From Mycobacterium sp. UM_CSW (GTDB lineage Bacteria > Actinomycetota > Actinomycetes > Mycobacteriales > Mycobacteriaceae): a DNA stretch of 39,457 bases. Positions within the stretch are counted from its first letter, which is position 1, and each line of letters begins with the position of its first letter. This document shows, piece by piece, positions 15,453 to 24,357 of this stretch. Made by a program: the position numbers and the translations under genes. A model generated the notes under the pieces. That model was not told the DNA's origin and ran no database searches. It worked only from the letters and a program-made list of their open reading frames with translations. The DNA is taken from positions 1-39,457 of the forward strand of contig NZ_AUWQ01000119.1 in assembly GCF_000455205.1 (NCBI RefSeq), in the 5' to 3' direction.

Positions 15453-15752
15453 TCAGGCCCGGCGGACCATGCCGACGACCCAGAGCAGGAGCACGGCGCC
15501 GAGCAGCGCGGTAAAGAAGGTGAAGATGATCCCGCCGCCGGCGGTGTTGACGAAGAAGCTCAGGATGAAGCCGCCGATCAACGCGCCGACGATGCCGATG
15601 ACGATGTCCATCAGGATGCCGGCCCCGCTGCCCCTGATGATCCTGCTGGCCAGCGCCCCTGCCAGCCCGCCGATGATGATGTAGCCGATCCAGCCGACGC
15701 TGGTCGTTGTCGTCGAGCGGGCGAGAAAGTCGGTTGCTGCCATGACGTCCAT
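15453..15752 (-). CDS. GlsB/YeaQ/YmgE-type small membrane protein (Rv1861-type)
   Basis: 99 residues from ATG 15752 (MDVMAATDFLARSTTTTSVG), preceded by GGAGA on the minus strand; an internal ATG at 15743 is the alternative. The body is a glycine-rich three-segment membrane protein: VGWIGYIIIGGLAGALASRII, GILMDIVIGIVGALIGGFIL, then ITFFTALLGAVLLLWVVGMV. This is the transglycosylase-associated protein pattern (glycine-zipper helices). Despite the family name no catalytic residue is known, and roles in envelope stress have been proposed for homologues. It lies between apa and adhA on the same strand with a repeat element upstream (15861-15934). Confidence 0.88.
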   Translation of the reverse strand: MDVMAATDFLARSTTTTSVGWIGYIIIGGLAGALASRIIRGSGAGILMDIVIGIVGALIGGFILSFFVNTAGGGIIFTFFTALLGAVLLLWVVGMVRRA

Positions 15753-15960: not shown

Positions 15961-16989
15961 TCAGGCCGGCAAAGCCCGTTGCGCCGCCGGAGTGGGAGTG
16001 ACTTCGCTGGCGGGCGCTTGGCCCGGAGCCGGCGCCGGGGCAGCCGGTGCCGGAGCGGGCGCCGGAGCGCCGGGAACCGGCGCGGTCGCGGGGGCGCCGG
16101 GCGCCGGGGCGGGCGCGGCCGGCGGGACCCACGGCTGGATCGATTCGGCGAGCGCCTTCGCGCCGCCCTGGTCCACCGCGTCGTTCGAGGTCCCGAGCCA
16201 CACCACGAACCAGCGCTGCGGCGGGCCATTGCCCGCCGAGGGCCCGCTGACCACACCGGTCCAGATCTGACCGTTCGGCTTGGACGGATCGCTGAACTTC
16301 ACCTCGTAGTACGACGCGCTTCCGGTGATCCCATTGGCGCCGGTCAGCGGAGTGGCGCTTTGGTTGATCCGGGTGCCGGGATAGGGCATGAAGAACTCAC
16401 CCATGTCGGAGCCCAGCCGGACGGCGGCCTTGGCGTCGCTGGCTTCGGCACTGGCGTAAAGCTTTTGGTCCAGCCGGCCCATCACGATGCGGGTGTCGTT
16501 GGCAACCGGCGGCGCCTGCCCGGGCGCCGGCGGCTGGCCGGTGGTCTTGCTGAGTAGCTCCGAACCGTAGTCGAGGTGGGTCGCGTCGGACTCCACCCAG
16601 CCGGGGGGAAGGACGAAGCTGAAGCCACCCACGGCGTTGCCGATCCGGCCCGCGTTGGGGTCGACGGGCGGCGGCGGGGGCGCGTTCGGATCGACCGGCG
16701 GTGGCGGCGTCGCGTTGGGATCGCCCGGTTGAGGCTGTGGCGATGCAGGCGCACCGGGAGGCGGCGGCGTCGTGGGCGTCGGCGACCCGGGCGCCGGGGC
16801 CGCCGTCGTCGGCGACGCAGGCGCGGGTGCCGTCGTCGTGGTTGGCGGGACCGGGGTCGGGGTCTCGGGGTCGGCGTTCGAGGTCGCCGGTAACGCGATA
16901 GCGACGGCGCTGGCACTGGTCACCGCGGCGATCGCCAGCGTCGCCCACAGCCCTTTCCGACGTGTCGAGTTCTGGTCCACCTGATCCAT
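15961..16989 (-). CDS. apa: Alanine/proline-rich secreted antigen Apa (fibronectin-attachment protein)
   Basis: 342 residues from ATG 16989. Residues 1-38 form a signal peptide: basic RRKG, a hydrophobic core [17 protein letters not shown], and a cleavage-like SNADPE. A Pro/Thr/Ala-rich region follows (to about 115), the kind that is O-mannosylated in this family. The folded core starts [20 protein letters not shown] and contains [20 protein letters not shown] and the fibronectin-contact-type motif [15 protein letters not shown]. The tail is again Ala/Pro-rich. It is secreted or cell-wall associated and a T-cell antigen. It sits downstream of modC on the same strand, the origin of its old name modD, though no molybdate role is expected. 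The proline-rich stretches differ in length between species. Confidence 0.95.
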
Positions 16990-17086
16990 GGCGACGAACC
17001 TACCGCGTTACGGCTGTGACGCAAGGGTGCCGTGCGGCGGTTCTTGCGATGTTGCCGATGTGCAATCTTGCGGGCGTCGGCGCAGG

Positions 17087-18184
17087 TCAGTGCGGCGAGG
17101 GATACAGCGTCACCTCGTGGGCCTTGACGGAGAACCACACCCGCTCCCCCGGCGTCAGCCGCAGCTCCGCGGCGGCGTCCGCGGTGATTTCCGCGGCCAG
17201 CCCCGGGGCGCCATCCGACTGTTCGCGGCCGCGCACCAGGACGGCGGATCCGTGAGCGTCCAGCTCCGCCACCGTCACCTCGACCGTGTTGCGGGGGCTG
17301 CCGCGCGGCCGGTCCCGGTACACGGCCACCGCCGTGGGCGGGAACACCGCGACCGCGTTGACCACCTCGGCGTCCAGCTCCTGGGCCGGGGTCGCATGCC
17401 AGTGGGCGCCGCCGCGATCGTGCAGCGAGCCGTCGGGGCCGACGGTGCCGGTGACCAGGTTGATGCCCGCGATGCGGGCGCCGAAATGACTGCGCGGCGC
17501 GGTGAGAACCTTTGCCACGGGCCCGATTTCGGCGATCTTTCCCGACTCGAGCACCAGTACCCGATCGGCCAGGGTGAACACGTCCAGCAGGTCGTGGGTG
17601 ATCAGGATGACCGCGCAGCCGGTTCGAGTGACGACGTCGCGCAGCGCCGCGCGGATGCCCGCGGCCGCGGCGACGTCGAGCCCGGCCAGTGGCTCGTCGA
17701 GCAGCAACACGTCGGGTTCGGCCGCCAGTGCGCGGGCGATCGCAACCCGCTGGGCCTGACCCCCGGACAGCTCTCGGGGTTTGCGGTCGGCGAAGCGCTC
17801 GGCGTCCACCTCGCGCAGCCAGCGCAGCGCCGTCGCCTTGTTGTCCGGACGGGCGAGACGGAACCGACCCCGGCGGCTGTGTGGCCCGAACGCCACGTTG
17901 GCGGCGACGCTCAGGTGCGGGAACAGCAGCGGGTCCTGCAGCAGCAACCCGACCCGGCGATCGTGGGTCGCCACGTGCACGCCGGCCGCGGTGTCGGTCA
18001 GCACCCGATCCCCCAGCCGCACGACGCCCTCGTCGGGCCGAAGCAGCCCGGCGATGACGTGCAGGGCGGTCGACTTGCCGGCACCGTTAGGTCCGAGGAC
18101 CGCGAGCACCTCGCCCGGCGACACCGAGAACTCCACATCCAGGCCGCGTTCGGCGACGACGGCGCGCAGCTGCAACTCGCTCAT
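17087..18184 (-). CDS. modC: Molybdate ABC transporter ATP-binding protein ModC
   Basis: 365 residues from ATG 18184. It overlaps the modB stop as ATGA, so the two are translationally coupled. ABC motifs: Walker [10 protein letters not shown] (31-39), a Q-loop ([13 protein letters not shown]), the signature [15 protein letters not shown], Walker [14 protein letters not shown] and the switch histidine in LITHD. The last ~130 residues resemble TOBE/Mop-type oxyanion-binding domains (for example [11 protein letters not shown]). It powers molybdate (and possibly tungstate) import with ModB and ModA. An open frame extends upstream across modB, but the ATGA junction and family length fix the start here. 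Confidence 0.95.
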
Positions 18185-18942
18185 GCGGATACCCCGGTGA
18201 GTCGGCGCGCACCCAGGCCCAGCACCACCACCGCGGCCACCGCCACCAGCAGGATCGACAGCGCCACCGCCGCGTTTTCGTCGCTCACCCGCTGCAGGTA
18301 GATCTCCAGCGGCAGGGTTCGGGTGACCCCCTGACGGGACCCGGCGAACGTCAGCGTCGCCCCGAACTCCCCCAGCGAGCGGGCGAACGCCAGCACCGCC
18401 CCCGACGTCAACCCGGGCAGCAACAGCGGCAGGGTCACCCGCCACCAGATCGTGCTCGGTCGCGCCCCCAGCGTCGCGGCGACCACCTCGTAGTCGGCTC
18501 CTGCGGTGCGCGCGGCGCCCTCGAGGGAAATCACCAGGAACGGCAGCGAGACGAACGTCTGCGCCAGCACCACCGCGGTCGTGCTGAAGGCGATGCTCAT
18601 CCCGGCGGCCTCGAGGTATCGCCCGATCAGTCCCAGCCGGCCGAACGCGTAGAGCAACGCGATGCCCGCCACCACCGGCGGCAGCACCAACGGCAGCAGG
18701 ATCAGCGGCCGCAGCAGCCGGATGACGCGCGCCGTGCTGCGGGCCAGCACCAGCGCCATCGGGACGCCCAGCAGCACGCACAGTGCGGTGCTGGCGGCGG
18801 CGGTCTTGAGGCTCAGCAGCAGCGCCGTCCGCGACGACGGGCTGGTGATCAGCGACCAGAAGTTCGGCCAGTCCACCTTGATCGCGATCGCTATCAGCGG
18901 CACGACCACGAACGCGGTCCCCGCCGCGGCGGGGATGTACAC
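18181..18942 (-). CDS. modB: Molybdate ABC transporter permease ModB, 5' end altered
   Basis: 253 residues if started at GTG 18942 ([20 protein letters not shown]). Five or six membrane segments are visible, with the permease EAA-loop [22 protein letters not shown] near 165-190. Upstream of the GTG the same frame continues as [11 protein letters not shown], which resembles the N-terminus I recall for M. tuberculosis ModB ([11 protein letters not shown]). It contains no ATG, GTG or TTG before a TGA at 19117-19115. An ATT codon at 18975 is preceded by AGGGG at good spacing and would give 264 residues, the recalled orthologue length. The true start is therefore uncertain. modA, its usual upstream partner, has been moved 2.8 kb away by an intervening gene. 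Confidence 0.9.
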
Positions 18943-18998
18943 CCACCTGGGCAGGTCCGTGCGACGCTCGCTAATACGTACACCCCTAAGCGTGGTCG

Positions 18999-19014
18999 GG
19001 CGGTCTACACCGCC
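18999..19014. promoter_or_regulatory. Inverted repeat GGCGGT-CTAC-ACCGCC in the modB/cyclase divergent gap
   Basis: A perfect 6-bp dyad with a 4-base spacer lies in the 111-base region between modB and the divergent cyclase gene (start 19054). It may be an operator for either gene. No known consensus matched. Confidence 0.35.
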
Positions 19015-19053
19015 TCAACCTAGTAGTTGCCGCCGATATGAGATTCTGCAGAG

Positions 19054-21696
19054 GTGGCAGCTCCTTCGGGGGTCGTGACGTTCCTGTTCACCGACGTTGA
19101 GGGTTCGACCCGTCGGTGGGAAGCCGACGCGGAGCGGATGCGGGCGGCACTGGCCGCACACGACGAGGTATTGCGCAAGGCGGTCGAGACGCACGGCGGC
19201 TGGTTGTTCAAGCACACCGGCGACGGGGTGTGTGCCGCGTTCGCCTCCCCCCGATCCGCGGTGGACGCTGCGGTGGCCGCGCAGCGGGCGCTGGAGTTGC
19301 CGGTGCGGATCGGGATCGCGACCGGTGAAGCCGAGCTGCGCGACGGCGACTACTTCGGTGCGGTGCTCAATCGCGCGGCACGGGTAATGGCCGCGGGCCA
19401 CGGCGGTCAGATCCTGTTGGCCGGGTCGACGGCGGGTCTGCTCGGCGGTGTTGATCTACGCGACCTGGGCCCGCGACGGCTGCGGGATCTGTCGGCTCCA
19501 GTTCAGGTGTTCCAGGTCAAAGCGGAGGGCTTGCCGACAGACTTTCCGCCGCTGCGGGCGCTGGATGCGAGCCCGGGGAACCTGCGGGCTGCGGTCACCA
19601 GTTTCATTGGCCGCGAGTCCGAGGTTGCCGAGCTGCAGGCGGCGGTGAAGGCTCGCCGGTTACTGACGTTGACCGGGGTGGGCGGGGTCGGCAAAACCCG
19701 CCTGGCCACCGAAGTCGCGGCGCGGTTGGCCGATGAATTCCCGGACGGGGTCTGGTTTTTCGACTTAGCCGCGGTGAGCGATCCCGCCGCAGTACCCGAC
19801 GCGGTGGCCGCGGTGCTGGGCATTGTCCAACAGCCGGGCAAGAGCATGAGCGACAGCGTCGCGGGCGCGTTGGAGGACAGAGTCCGGCTGCTCGTGTTCG
19901 ACAACTGCGAACACGTTGTGGGCAGTGTCGCCGATCTGGTCGAGGCGATCCTTGCCGCCTCGGCGACCGTAACGATTCTCGCGACCAGTCGCGAAGGATT
20001 GGGGGTCAGCGAGGAACAGTTATGGCGCGTCCCGTCGCTCGAAGTCGACTCCGGAACTGAATCCGCCGCCGTAAACCTTTTTGTCGACCGCGCACACAGT
20101 GTGGTTTCAGACTTTTCGCTGGCCCAGCCCGACGAAGCGGCCGCTGTCGTGGAAGTCTGCCGCCGACTCGACGGCATTCCGTTGGCTATCGAGTTGGCGG
20201 CCTCGCGGATGGCGTCGATGTCGGCCGGTGAGGTGCGAGATCGCCTGGATCAACGGTTCCGGCTGCTGGTGGGTTCGCGGCGCGGCCTGTCACGCCACCA
20301 AACTCTGCGCCACGCCGTCGCGTGGTCCTACGACCATCTTGATGACGCGGAGAAAGTCCTGCTGGAGCGGTGCTCGGTGTTCGCCGGCGGGTTTGACCTA
20401 GAAAGCGCCTGTGCGGTCATGGGTTCCGGTGACGACTACGCCGTCCTCGACCTACTCGACGCGCTGGTGCATAAATCGCTGCTGGTGGCCGACCGGTCGT
20501 CGGGCCGGACCCGATATTCGATGCTCGAAACGATCCGCCAGTTCGCCGAGGAACAGCTTGTTGCGAATGGCCAGGCCACCGACGTCCGGAATGCCCATGC
20601 TCGCTACTTCGCCGGACGCGAAACCGACCTCATGGCCCTGTGGGACAGTCCCCGTCAGCGGGATGCCTACGCCTGGTTCACCGTCGAGCTGGCCAATCTG
20701 CGCACCGCGTTTCGCTGGGCCGCGGACCAAGCCGATCTGGACACCGCCGCCGCCATCGCCGCCTACACGGCGCTCCTCGGCGCTCTGTTCGCCAATTATG
20801 AGCCGATGGCCTGGGCCGAGGAGCTCATCGAGCCCGCCTGCGCCGTTGACCATCCTCGCCTCGCGACTCTGTACGTGAACGCCGCGCAGTGCTACTGGAC
20901 TGGCCGGATCGACGATGCGGTCGGCTATGCCGACGCGGGCCAGACGGTGATCGGTGGTGGCGGCCAGGTGCAGATCGGCGCCGAGGGCGCACTTACTTCG
21001 GTGTACCCGCTCATCGGCCAGACCGAACGAAACGTCGAGTGGTGTCGCGCCCAGCTCGCACGCGGCCGCGACACCCATACGGTCACCCAGGCGATGCTGG
21101 TAGTCGGACTTGCGGTCGCCGGAGCCGGTGAGGAAGCGAGGGCCGCTGTGAACGGGCTGGTCGAATCCGCCGAAGCCACCCAGAACCCCTGGGTGCTCGC
21201 GAACGCGCTCTACGCCTACGGCTTCGCCTTCCGCGACGCTGACCCCGCCCGCGCGCTGGACGCCCTGCGCCGGGGCCTGGTGATCGCCCAAGGCAGCGGC
21301 AGCCGCGCGGCCGAATCACTGCTGGCTACCGTCTTGTCGCGGGTTGAGGCCGAACACGGCGATCCGCCGGCGGCCCTTGATCACATCACTCTGGCGATCC
21401 GCAACTTCTACGACGCCGGCAACGTCGCCTACATCCGTTTCGCCCTGGGCACTCTCGCGGTGCTCCTCGACCGCCTCGGACACCTTGAACCGGCGGCCAC
21501 CATCGCGGGTTTCGCATTCAATCCCCTCACCGCGTCGGAACTCAGCACCGCGATCGCTCATCTGCGCTCCGTCCTCGGCGATCAAACCTACGAATCGCTC
21601 GCCAGCACGGGAGAGGCGAGGGCCACCGCCGCGATCGTGACGTACGCCTACGACCAAATCGACCAGGCCCGAACGGAACTCGAGCTCTCCGGCTGA
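19054..21696 (+). CDS. Class III adenylyl cyclase fused to NB-ARC ATPase and TPR-like region
   Basis: 880 residues from GTG 19054. The N-terminal cyclase domain (about 1-160) has every catalytic residue expected: metal-binding Asp14 (FTDVEGST) and Asp57 (TGDG), adenine-selecting Lys53 and Asp99 (GDYFG), and transition-state Asn106 and Arg110 (LNRAAR). It should therefore make cAMP. A linker leads to TSFIGRESEV and Walker A GVGGVGKT (208-215), then Walker B VFDNCEH (281-287), an ATSRE motif, PLAIELAASRM and a winged-helix segment. The C-terminal ~350 residues are helical and TPR-like. Related mycobacterial proteins (Rv0386, Rv1358, Rv2488c) end in a LuxR-type DNA-binding domain, but here the chain stops without one. 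It lies opposite to and between modB and modA, with only 12 bases to the modA stop. Confidence 0.9.
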   Translation: MAAPSGVVTFLFTDVEGSTRRWEADAERMRAALAAHDEVLRKAVETHGGWLFKHTGDGVCAAFASPRSAVDAAVAAQRALELPVRIGIATGEAELRDGDYFGAVLNRAARVMAAGHGGQILLAGSTAGLLGGVDLRDLGPRRLRDLSAPVQVFQVKAEGLPTDFPPLRALDASPGNLRAAVTSFIGRESEVAELQAAVKARRLLTLTGVGGVGKTRLATEVAARLADEFPDGVWFFDLAAVSDPAAVPDAVAAVLGIVQQPGKSMSDSVAGALEDRVRLLVFDNCEHVVGSVADLVEAILAASATVTILATSREGLGVSEEQLWRVPSLEVDSGTESAAVNLFVDRAHSVVSDFSLAQPDEAAAVVEVCRRLDGIPLAIELAASRMASMSAGEVRDRLDQRFRLLVGSRRGLSRHQTLRHAVAWSYDHLDDAEKVLLERCSVFAGGFDLESACAVMGSGDDYAVLDLLDALVHKSLLVADRSSGRTRYSMLETIRQFAEEQLVANGQATDVRNAHARYFAGRETDLMALWDSPRQRDAYAWFTVELANLRTAFRWAADQADLDTAAAIAAYTALLGALFANYEPMAWAEELIEPACAVDHPRLATLYVNAAQCYWTGRIDDAVGYADAGQTVIGGGGQVQIGAEGALTSVYPLIGQTERNVEWCRAQLARGRDTHTVTQAMLVVGLAVAGAGEEARAAVNGLVESAEATQNPWVLANALYAYGFAFRDADPARALDALRRGLVIAQGSGSRAAESLLATVLSRVEAEHGDPPAALDHITLAIRNFYDAGNVAYIRFALGTLAVLLDRLGHLEPAATIAGFAFNPLTASELSTAIAHLRSVLGDQTYESLASTGEARATAAIVTYAYDQIDQARTELELSG

Positions 21697-21708
21697 ACCC
21701 CGCCCGGG

Positions 21709-22494
21709 TCAGGGTTTGGCGAAGCCCAACTGGGCGAGGATGTTCTGACCGATGTCACCGGTCACCATGGCCACGAACTTTTGCGCCAGCGTCGCCTGCG
21801 CGGCGTTCTTCAACACCGCGATCGGATAGACATTGACCGCGCCGGCGGCCTCCGGAAAGTTCACCGTCGCGACCTTGTTCCCGGCGCTGTGGGCGTCGGT
21901 GACGTAGACCAGTCCGGCGTCGGCCTGTCCGGTGGTGACCTTGTTGAGGACGTCAGTCACGTTGAGTTCCTCGCTGACCGGGTTGAGGCGCACGCCGGTG
22001 CTGTCCTCGACGCGCTGGGTTGCCGATCCGCACGGCACCGGCTTCTGGCAGATCACCACGCTCAGCCCAGGCTTGGCAAGGTCCGCGAAGGACCCGACCT
22101 TCTTCGGGTTGCCCGGCGCCGTCACGATGACGAGCGTGTTCGACGCGAAGTTCGTCGGGCTGCCCGCCAGCAGCCCCGCCTTGGCGACCGTGTCCATCTG
22201 CGCGGTGTCCGCCGACGCGAAGACGTCGGCCGTCGCGCCCTGAGTCAGCTGCTTGGCGAGCTCGGACGAACCCGCGAACTCGAAATCCACAGTGCTGCCG
22301 GGGTTTTGGGCCTTGAACTGGTCACTGATCTGACCGAACGCCGGCTTCAGCGAGGCCGCGGCGAAGACGACGACCTTCCCGGCGGGCTGGGCCGGCTGAG
22401 GGGATGATGACGACGGCGTTTTCGAGCTGCACCCGACCAGACCCGCCAGCAAGATCGTCGAAACCAGCCCGGCCAAGATTCCGATCCGCCGCAT
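21709..22494 (-). CDS. modA: Molybdate-binding lipoprotein ModA
   Basis: 261 residues from ATG 22494. Signal peptide with a lipobox ending Gly-Cys22 (LAGLVGCSS), so it is lipid-anchored on the outer face of the membrane. The mature part starts VVVFAAASLKPAFGQIS, the typical ModA opening that contacts the oxyanion. GSSELAKQLTQGATADVFASAD and the C-terminal AGLVYVTDAHSAG follow the family pattern. It delivers molybdate to ModB/ModC for molybdenum cofactor enzymes. Its stop is 12 bases from the stop of the convergent cyclase gene, which separates it from modBC, so modA needs its own transcript here. Confidence 0.95.
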   Translation of the reverse strand: MRRIGILAGLVSTILLAGLVGCSSKTPSSSSPQPAQPAGKVVVFAAASLKPAFGQISDQFKAQNPGSTVDFEFAGSSELAKQLTQGATADVFASADTAQMDTVAKAGLLAGSPTNFASNTLVIVTAPGNPKKVGSFADLAKPGLSVVICQKPVPCGSATQRVEDSTGVRLNPVSEELNVTDVLNKVTTGQADAGLVYVTDAHSAGNKVATVNFPEAAGAVNVYPIAVLKNAAQATLAQKFVAMVTGDIGQNILAQLGFAKP

Positions 22495-22642
22495 GGGTGC
22501 ACCCTAGTCCGCCGACGATGCGGTCGCGCGGCGGCCAAATCGTCGCAAACACGTGGCGACCGAATAGTTATGCAAATGATCCCGCGCGTCGCGGCGCCCG
22601 GAGTTTCGCGTACTAGCTACCGTCCAGTAACATCTTCTTAGA

Positions 22643-22655
22643 TTTATGCCATAAA
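22643..22655. promoter_or_regulatory. Palindrome TTTATG-C-CATAAA in the modA/SDR divergent region
   Basis: A perfect 6-bp dyad around a single C lies in the 213-base gap between modA and the divergent SDR-like gene. The AT-rich sequence stands out in GC-rich surroundings. It may be an operator or promoter element for modA or the SDR. It does not match the E. coli ModE box I know. Confidence 0.4.
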
Positions 22656-22682
22656 CGCGCTGAGGTCCCAGGCAGCTTCTGG

Positions 22683-22696
22683 GTTCAACGTTGAAC
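22683..22696. promoter_or_regulatory. 14-bp perfect palindrome GTTCAACGTTGAAC before the SDR-like gene
   Basis: A perfect 14-base palindrome ends only a few bases before the ribosome site GAGGAGG (22699-22705) of the gene at 22708. It is likely a repressor operator covering the start of transcription or translation. No regulator gene is adjacent. Confidence 0.5.
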
Positions 22697-22707
22697 ACGA
22701 GGAGGTC

Positions 22708-23385
22708 ATGGCAGTGGAGGTTCTGGTCACCGGGGGCGACACGGACTTGGGACGCACAGTGGCCGAGGGCTTCCGCGACGACGGCCACAAGGTGACCCTC
22801 GTGGGCGCGCGCCGCAGCGATCTCGAGGTCGCCGCGAAGGAGCTGGACGTCGACGCCATCGTCTGCGACACCTGCGACCCGGCCAGCCTGGCCGAGGCGC
22901 GCGGGCTGTTCCCCCATCACCTGGACACCATCGTCAACGTGCCGGCGCCGGCCTGGGACCCGGGCGACCCGCGCACCTACTCGCTGGCCGACACGGCCAA
23001 AGCCTGGCGTAACGCCCTCGACGCGACGGTGCTGTCCGCGGCGCTGACCGTGCAGGCGGTCGGCGACCACCTGCGCTCGGGGGGCTCGATCATCAGTGTG
23101 GTGGCGGAGAACCCGCCCGCCGGAAGCATCGACGCCGCGATCAAGGCGACGCTGTCGAATTGGACCGCGGGACAGGCGGAAGCCTTCGGCACCCGTGGGA
23201 TCACGGTCAACACGGTCGCCAGCGGGCGCAGCGCCCAGGCCGGCTACGACGGGCTGTCGCGCACCCCGCCGACGGTCGCCGCAGAGGTCGCCCGCCTGGC
23301 GCTATTCCTCACCACCCCGGCGGCTCGCCACATCACCGGGCAGACGCTGCACGTGAGCCACGGCGCGCTGGCGAGTTTCGCCTGA
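22708..23385 (+). CDS. Degenerate SDR-family protein (Rv1856c-type)
   Basis: 225 residues from ATG 22708, with GAGGAGG 2 bases upstream. It has an SDR Rossmann start (VLVTGGDTDLGRTVAEGF, with TGGDTDLG in place of TGxxxGxG) and the late helix AEVARLALFLTTPAARHITGQTLHVSHG, which is typical SDR. The catalytic site is altered: the usual YxxxK tyrosine position reads Asp (DAAIK), and the NNAG motif reads NVPAP. It may bind a nucleotide but probably lacks standard dehydrogenase chemistry, so a regulatory or structural role is possible. It is divergent from modA and followed by the LLM oxidoreductase. The same arrangement next to modA exists in M. tuberculosis (Rv1856c). Confidence 0.88.
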   Translation: MAVEVLVTGGDTDLGRTVAEGFRDDGHKVTLVGARRSDLEVAAKELDVDAIVCDTCDPASLAEARGLFPHHLDTIVNVPAPAWDPGDPRTYSLADTAKAWRNALDATVLSAALTVQAVGDHLRSGGSIISVVAENPPAGSIDAAIKATLSNWTAGQAEAFGTRGITVNTVASGRSAQAGYDGLSRTPPTVAAEVARLALFLTTPAARHITGQTLHVSHGALASFA

Positions 23386-23399
23386 GGCTGAATCGCGAA

Positions 23400-23419
23400 C
23401 CCTGGTTCTGATACCAGGG
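23400..23419. promoter_or_regulatory. Hairpin CCCTGGT-N6-ACCAGGG before the LLM oxidoreductase
   Basis: A perfect 7-bp stem with a 6-base loop lies 14 bases after the SDR stop and just before the GTG starts at 23422 and 23431. It overlaps the ribosome-site-like AGGGCGG, so it could modulate translation. There is no U-run, so a classical terminator is unlikely. Confidence 0.4.
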
Positions 23420-23430
23420 CGGTGGCTACG

Positions 23431-24357
23431 GTGAATGACGTGGCTATCCGACTTGGTTTGCAGATTCCCAACTTTTCCTACGGCACCGGGGTGGACAAGC
23501 TCTTCCCCACTGTTATCGCCCAGGCTCAAGAAGCCGAGGCGGCCGGATTCGATTCGGTCTTCGTCATGGACCACTTCTACCAACTGCCCATGCTGGGCGA
23601 TCCCGACCAGCCGATGCTGGAGGCCTACACGGCGCTGGCCGCCCTGGCTACCGCGACCGAACGGGTGCAGCTGGGCACTCTGGTGACCGGCAACACCTAC
23701 CGCAACCCGACGCTGCTCGCCAAGATCATCACGACGCTGGACGTGGTGAGCCAGGGCCGGGCGATCCTGGGCATCGGCACCGGCTGGTTCGAGCTCGAGC
23801 ACGACCAGTTGGGCTTCGAATTCGGCACCTTCACCGACAGGTTCAATCGTCTCGAGGAGGCGCTGCAGATCATCCTGCCGATGATCAAGGGCGAGCGGCC
23901 GACCTTCTCCGGCAAGTGGTATCGGGCCAAGGAGGCGGTGGCCAATCCCCGCTTCCGCGACCACATTCCGCTGATGATTGGCGGCAGCGGCGAGAAGAAG
24001 ACGATCCCGCTCGCCGCGCGCCACTTCGACCACCTCAACGTCATCGCCGGGTTCGACGAGCTGCCCGCCAAGCTGAAAGTCGTGCGGGAGCGCTGCGAGG
24101 AGATCGGCCGCGACCCGGCCACGCTGGAGACCAGCACGCTGACCACCGCGGTCGTCGACGAGAACTTCAACGCCGACCAGATCCCCGCCGAGATGACCCA
24201 GCGCGCGGTGGTCGGCAGCGCCGAGTCGGTCGCCGACCAACTCAAGACGAAGGTGCTCGACGCCGGGATCGACGGGGTGATCATCAACATGCCGTTCTAC
24301 ACACCCGGCACCATCGCCGCGGTCGGCGAAGCCTTGCGCCCGATCGTGGGGCTGTAA
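23431..24357 (+). CDS. LLM-class F420-dependent oxidoreductase (Rv1855c-type)
   Basis: 308 residues from GTG 23431; GTG codons at 23422 and 23440 are in frame alternatives. 23431 has AGGGCGG about 8 bases upstream. The luciferase-like TIM barrel is recognised by LGLQIPNFSYGTGVDKLFPTV, FDSVFVMDHFYQLP, TERVQLGTLVTGNTYRNP and GRAILGIGTGWFELEH, then IPLMIGGSGEKKT. These residues form the F420 (or flavin) site in mycobacterial homologues. It likely reduces or oxidises an unknown small metabolite using F420. It sits between the degenerate SDR and ndh, all on the plus strand, as in M. tuberculosis. Confidence 0.88.
   Translation: MNDVAIRLGLQIPNFSYGTGVDKLFPTVIAQAQEAEAAGFDSVFVMDHFYQLPMLGDPDQPMLEAYTALAALATATERVQLGTLVTGNTYRNPTLLAKIITTLDVVSQGRAILGIGTGWFELEHDQLGFEFGTFTDRFNRLEEALQIILPMIKGERPTFSGKWYRAKEAVANPRFRDHIPLMIGGSGEKKTIPLAARHFDHLNVIAGFDELPAKLKVVRERCEEIGRDPATLETSTLTTAVVDENFNADQIPAEMTQRAVVGSAESVADQLKTKVLDAGIDGVIINMPFYTPGTIAAVGEALRPIVGL

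Follow-up and report, generated by a model that had tools for sequence, protein, structure and literature searches.

In Mycobacterium tuberculosis the molybdate transporter genes modABC carry the numbers Rv1857-Rv1858-Rv1859, as given in PMC7034087. Operons that hold a gene on the opposite strand have been described: a review names menE-menC-MW1733-ytkD-MW1731 of Staphylococcus aureus as a noncontiguous operon with such a gene inside it (PMC7154746). The Mclx proteins, of the cyclase/LuxR type, are described as nearly exclusive to mycobacteria (PMC4452763), and distributive conjugal transfer is reported to yield mosaics in which donor segments range from 59 bp to 226 kb (PMC3706393).

We examined a stretch of 39,457 nucleotides, contig NZ_AUWQ01000119.1 of Mycobacterium sp. 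UM_CSW, which is called the window throughout. The window holds the same three transporter genes as M. tuberculosis modABC but differs from it in that modA is parted from modBC and the modB start is replaced. No title on this modA-modB junction was found among the literature matches listed.

The split arrangement is real, derived and recurrent. We propose that a group of slow-growing mycobacteria has an exchange slot at the modA-modB boundary. In its tight form, modA ends a few bases from a GTG, TTG or ATG start of modB. In its open form, a block starts directly after the modA stop, carries cargo genes that differ between species, and swaps the modB start region for a Shine-Dalgarno-like purine run followed by ATT or ATC. 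The window genome would have gained the open block with an opposed cyclase after its split from the nearest sampled relative, with modA read from its own promoter, modBC from a separate one and the cyclase from an interlocked leaderless promoter. We hold this proposal as a whole with moderate confidence. The sequences show the gene order, the modB 5' end common to open loci and the conflicts between trees, whereas the promoters, their competition and AUU initiation are predictions.

An opposed cyclase gene between modA and modB

The transporter genes lie on the minus strand. modA (21709..22494) encodes the molybdate-binding protein and passes its NCBIfam cut-off (TIGR01256, 128.2 vs 62.5), as does the permease gene modB (18181..18975, with a predicted AUU start at 18973-18975; TIGR02141, 220.6 vs 182.6). 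The 365-aa ATPase of the molybdate ABC transporter encoded by modC (17087..18184) misses the equivalog cut-off (TIGR02142, 207.9 vs 285.05 bits) and is still an ABC_tran plus TOBE protein. An SDR oxidoreductase gene on the plus strand (22708..23385; NF004534, 431.4 bits vs 244) diverges from modA and served as the syntenic anchor. The open reading frames and their strands confirmed the central claim of the preliminary description: a plus-strand cyclase/NB-ARC gene (19054..21696, GTG start, 880 aa) sits between modA and modBC. Its stop converges on that of modA across 12 bp (21697..21708) without a terminator-like site, and 0 Rfam matches to known RNA elements were found in 16900-23500. Assembly error is an unlikely cause of the cyclase position because the gene lies within the contig, its nearest relative among the 4 scored of 48 candidates in the genome shares 74% identity with it, and the same order occurs in other genomes.

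The protein reads as a class III nucleotide cyclase followed by an NB-ARC/AAA module and a C-terminal region. It passed the Pfam cut-offs for PF00211 (33.5 vs 21.9 bits), AAA_22 (27.9 vs 27) and NB-ARC (25 vs 23.5), with AAA_16 slightly below cut-off (31.6 vs 32.6). The solved proteins that match it best in sequence, 10 distinct chains at E <= 0.001, are nucleotide cyclases. Stretches aligned to these solved cyclases contain FTDVEGST, FKHTGDG and GDYFGAVLNRAARV, which we take to be the class III catalytic motifs. Together with purifying selection (dN/dS 0.17 vs its nearest relative), these motifs suggest that the predicted enzyme is probably active. As in the partly comparable Mclx proteins Rv0386, Rv1358 and Rv2488c, a cyclase homology domain, here of class III, is joined to further domains; the Mclx family has LuxR, whereas neither Pfam nor NCBIfam gave a LuxR family for the 880-aa protein at E <= 0.001. 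A PF00211 search of the source genome gave 34 further matches, none on this contig; that search missed the window cyclase itself, which hmmscan detects.

The wider cyclase family is mosaic. Among the 39 copies kept for a tree (52% identity and 800 aa or more), different segments of the window gene are nearest to different copies: nucleotides 1300-2480 are 88-90% like a non-junction copy of genome G080, the first 200 nt are closest to the G155 junction copy (87.3%), with a non-junction G148 copy just behind (87.0%), and no supported grouping emerged for the last 150 nt. Simple orthology between the window cyclase and those at the other junctions was rejected, as the window gene is sister to the non-junction G080 copy (100/99) and its segments disagree. 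Copies of the 880-aa family also stand in tandem at L135, L198 and L207, and the mosaic family looks as if it recombined often.

Occupancy of the boundary and origin of the insert

With ModA as query we screened 198 genomes of the genus and looked at the junction in the best 74. The two genes abut in 52, the cyclase lies between them in 6 and another insert in 4. The rest comprised 1 contig end, 1 genome with modB not in the stretch and 10 with modA away from the SDR gene; these 12 of the 74 were classed as uninformative or not syntenic. A second, overlapping set held 80 named loci among the ModB matches listed (L039-L118): 45 tight, 27 without modA before modB, 4 with another insert, 2 with cyclase remnants, 1 with the cyclase (M. 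paraense) and 1 at a contig start (L042). A few genomes appear twice, having come from two collections. Adjacency of modA and modB is therefore usual in sampled relatives with modA beside the SDR gene, as had been assumed, and comparison of the junction across mycobacteria showed the split order to be derived, not ancestral, within the genomes searched and looked at.

The 27 loci with modBC and no modA before modB belong mostly to fast growers, judged by name, and in most of them the SDR gene directly precedes modB.

Sixteen loci are of the open type: six cyclase junctions (the window and five other sampled genomes), two cyclase remnants, seven with other inserts, and L042. The cyclase is opposed to the mod strand in all six junctions; the slot of G036 holds, besides the opposed cyclase, a longer member of the family, encoded on the mod strand by an open frame of 1095 aa. 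Other cargo consists of a methyltransferase (L136), DUF2510 (L137 and, by eye, L060 and L062), DUF732 (L153 and, by eye, L051) and MpaB-like pieces (L065). Remnant L043 retains pieces of both cyclase ends, best matched to the L131 slot (0 of 200 shuffles scored as high for either piece), and L053 retains pieces of the 3' end. In M. paraense (L044) a 363-aa gene lies between cyclase and modB. A 359-aa gene stands beside modA in G058, the contig-end genome (L134:180-1259); its product is identical to that of the M. paraense gene at 287 of 358 positions and had no Pfam match. L042 was tried as a cyclase junction and rejected, there being no cyclase-like sequence in L042:1-325; its contig begins there, and with an open-type modB start and the TAGGTTG block described below it is now classed as open type, cargo unseen.

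The slot of M. lepraemurium (L065:7072-7886) holds two overlapping ORFs. Each corresponds to a portion of PF09995, the MpaB-like oxygenase family, which suggests a disrupted gene.

Trees were built from the flanking genes SDR, modA, modB and modC. Of 132 loci, 119 were kept after removal of nine that duplicated others and four that lacked SDR or modB; the flank tree had 96 rows and the test of an open clade 93. Fast growers lacking modA were left out, except for three kept as outgroup in the 96-row tree, one of which was misplaced. The window is sister to L039, then to L040 and L046, all tight, with the forks starred. Measured in 250-base windows, the window and L039 are 92-96% identical between 17000 and the junction and again between 21750 and 23500, and less so farther out (81% and 74% near 15750 and 26000; 15500 did not align). 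A recombination tract beside the insert was considered and rejected, as the near-junction windows show no identity drop against L039. Base by base, open-type resemblance is limited to roughly 20 nt at the beginning of modB, just past its start, which places the modB-side breakpoint within about 20 nt. Because the three nearest rows of the flank tree are empty and the near-junction flanks are 92-96% identical to L039, the window lineage probably gained the open block and cyclase recently, after splitting from L039.

A single clade for 15 open junctions was rejected on the flanking genes (p-AU 9.35e-05, a two-tree test). A single clade for the six junction cyclases was likewise rejected on the 39-row cyclase tree (p-AU 3.7e-70, also a two-tree test), where cyclase mosaicism means that both the tree and its AU test may mislead. 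Rejection of a single clade of occupied loci by both the flank and the cyclase trees suggests recurrent exchange at a cargo slot.

The strongest alternative is one old cyclase insertion, inherited since, in which paralog gene conversion and many losses through exchange with tight alleles, not repeated gains, produced the present pattern. It would explain why a modB-proximal block is common to all cyclase junctions, why remnants persist at L043 (both ends) and L053 (3' end) and why the cyclases are mosaic, with segments of the window gene nearest to different copies. However, the tight sisters start like other tight loci (GTG CAC CGG and similar) without a deletion scar, and the flank tree requires 9 open/tight changes and 5 changes for cyclase-or-remnant. 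We regard a single old insertion as somewhat unlikely and prefer recurrent exchange.

A candidate mechanism for this exchange is short-tract conjugal mosaicism. Distributive conjugal transfer could account for short, sharp-ended segments exchanged between mycobacteria; unlike in the described mosaics, no donor was found for the open block of the window. A search for terminal inverted repeats or a target duplication, as a transposon or integron cassette would leave, covered pairs of 12 nt or more and found none linking one end of the block to the other. A mobile-element end at the modB side was also tried and rejected: 36 of the 198 genomes contain ACGTATTAGCG, against about 50 for the reversed sequence used as control, among the matches listed. 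In the source genome a 22-nt pattern around the ATT had one match with up to 3 mismatches, and a 14-nt pattern of the TAGGTT block occurred once exactly and once with one mismatch. The 14-mer CGCCTCAACCTAGC was exact in 7 of 208 loci, all of them mod junctions, with variants in the window, L129 and L053.

Predicted promoters in the shared gap and possible read-through from modA

The preliminary description placed a new modB promoter in the gap shared with the cyclase gene, and a promoter-like block is indeed there. It contains TAGGTT (19017..19022, minus strand), and TAGGTTG is unchanged across an alignment of nine loci, made up of the six cyclase junctions, the two remnants and L042. The promoter itself is predicted from sequence. 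Lying about 35 nt before the ATT, TAGGTT fits what we take to be the mycobacterial -10 consensus; modBC would then be transcribed from near 19010 with a leader of about 35 nt, and modA from its own promoter.

On the plus strand, TGA followed by GATTCT (19042..19047), 6 nt and then the GTG fits a leaderless promoter, from which cyclase transcription would start at 19054. Leaderless translation in mycobacteria requires the RNA to begin with ATG or GTG, according to PMC4633059. A strict pattern of this type precedes 23 of 39 cyclase family copies, in and outside this slot. In the window the two -10 elements are 19 bp apart and face away from each other. Because each roughly occupies the position expected for the -35 of the other, the modBC and cyclase promoters are expected to compete for RNA polymerase. 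This prediction is for the window genome only: the interlocked spacing was seen there alone, the -10 elements in four other cyclase junctions being 55, 56, 75 and 179 bp apart, and M. paraense having another ORF between.

A sigma-70 consensus scan returned 0 promoters in 16900-23400, with no -35 apparent; shuffling gave an expectation of 0.2, so this null says little. Because this generic scan saw no promoter, we only infer those of modBC and the cyclase.

The preliminary description also took cotranscription of modBC with modA to be lost. In that form the claim is unsupported. The single terminator-like site lies at 19741, inside the cyclase, and there is none at the modA end; since operons with an opposite inner gene are known, read-through from modA is possible. 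Under such a noncontiguous operon, the modA transcript would run through the cyclase gene in antisense into modBC, and collision or double-strand processing would regulate both mRNAs. The layout resembles the published type, so far as the review describes it (PMC7154746), and only 12 bp without a terminator-like site separate the modA and cyclase ends. The conserved -10-like block near modB and its leader instead suggest that modBC has its own promoter, which we favour; joint transcription across the cyclase is unlikely.

The replaced modB start

All 16 open-type loci share a modB 5' end despite their differing cargo. Tight loci use ATG, GTG or TTG 9-13 codons from a conserved W in 95 of 95 scored (of 97, not all distinct genomes; GTG 67, TTG 15, ATG 13). 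At the corresponding position open-type loci have ATT (11), ATC (4) or ACT (1, L130), 3' of a purine-rich run. In the window this run includes AGGGG (18983..18987, minus strand), Shine-Dalgarno-like and 7 nt 5' of the ATT, and other open-type loci have G-rich or AGGAGG-like runs at the Shine-Dalgarno place. In seven of the 16, the interval from the upstream stop (or -120) to the conserved W contains no ATG, GTG or TTG.

Pairwise differences in the D-L-P-R codons before the conserved W are mostly synonymous (236 synonymous vs 42 nonsynonymous), unlike those in codons 5' of the ATT (104 vs 926), so translation of modB very likely begins before D-L-P-R. The simplest start would be the ATT or ATC, implying AUU initiation in the window. 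Three observations speak against this reading: the five codons between ATT and D show 69 synonymous vs 359 nonsynonymous differences, L130 carries ACT, and nine of the 16 loci do have an in-frame ATG, GTG or TTG before W (at 9 codons in two, at 16-25 in the others). With modB starting at ATT 18973-18975, the gap shared with the cyclase gene is likely 78 bases and not the 111 first given, which were counted from GTG 18942.

A start at GTG 18942, with the ATT irrelevant, would use the first ATG, GTG or TTG after the in-frame stop in the window. We consider it distinctly unlikely: that codon is GTA in three of the 16 open-type loci, and the codons immediately before 18942 are under protein-level constraint. 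The ATT or ATC start is thus the one we retain. infC is among the few genes known to start at AUU. 'AUU start codon' co-occurs with mycobacteria among the literature matches listed, and an ATT or ATC start kept across open-type transporter loci would extend the few genes known to start at AUU. The pattern also suggests that gene callers restricted to ATG, GTG and TTG would misplace the modB start in some open-type genomes.

Divergent control tying cAMP signalling to molybdate uptake, as first suggested, is very improbable: a 78-bp gap with facing promoter-like sites and a family cyclase in the same orientation in six sampled genomes would fit it, but the link is weakened because unrelated genes (methyltransferase, DUF2510, DUF732, MpaB-like) fill the slot in relatives, the 363-aa gene separates cyclase from modB in M. 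paraense, and the nearest sisters have no insert at all. The interest of the locus rests on the slot and the replaced modB start, not on that idea. Empty, cyclase-bearing, otherwise loaded and remnant loci form a natural series in which an operon was opened while a new start apparently kept its downstream half functional, and this makes the tolerance of bacteria for insertions within operons testable. More tentatively, with confidence a little short of even, tight and open forms may cross species lines as a general pattern. The open form would bring swappable cargo, its own modB promoter and an AUU or AUC start. Open blocks would pass from one mycobacterium to another, breaking the sequence no more than tens of bases from the coding ends, and would divide a single operon into two units with the transporter still expressed.

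The window locus differs from the noncontiguous operon of S. aureus by the conserved modB promoter-like block, the separate start and the variable inner cargo. The two are alike in having an opposite-strand gene within an operon, and in the window the convergent end of that gene is without a terminator-like site.
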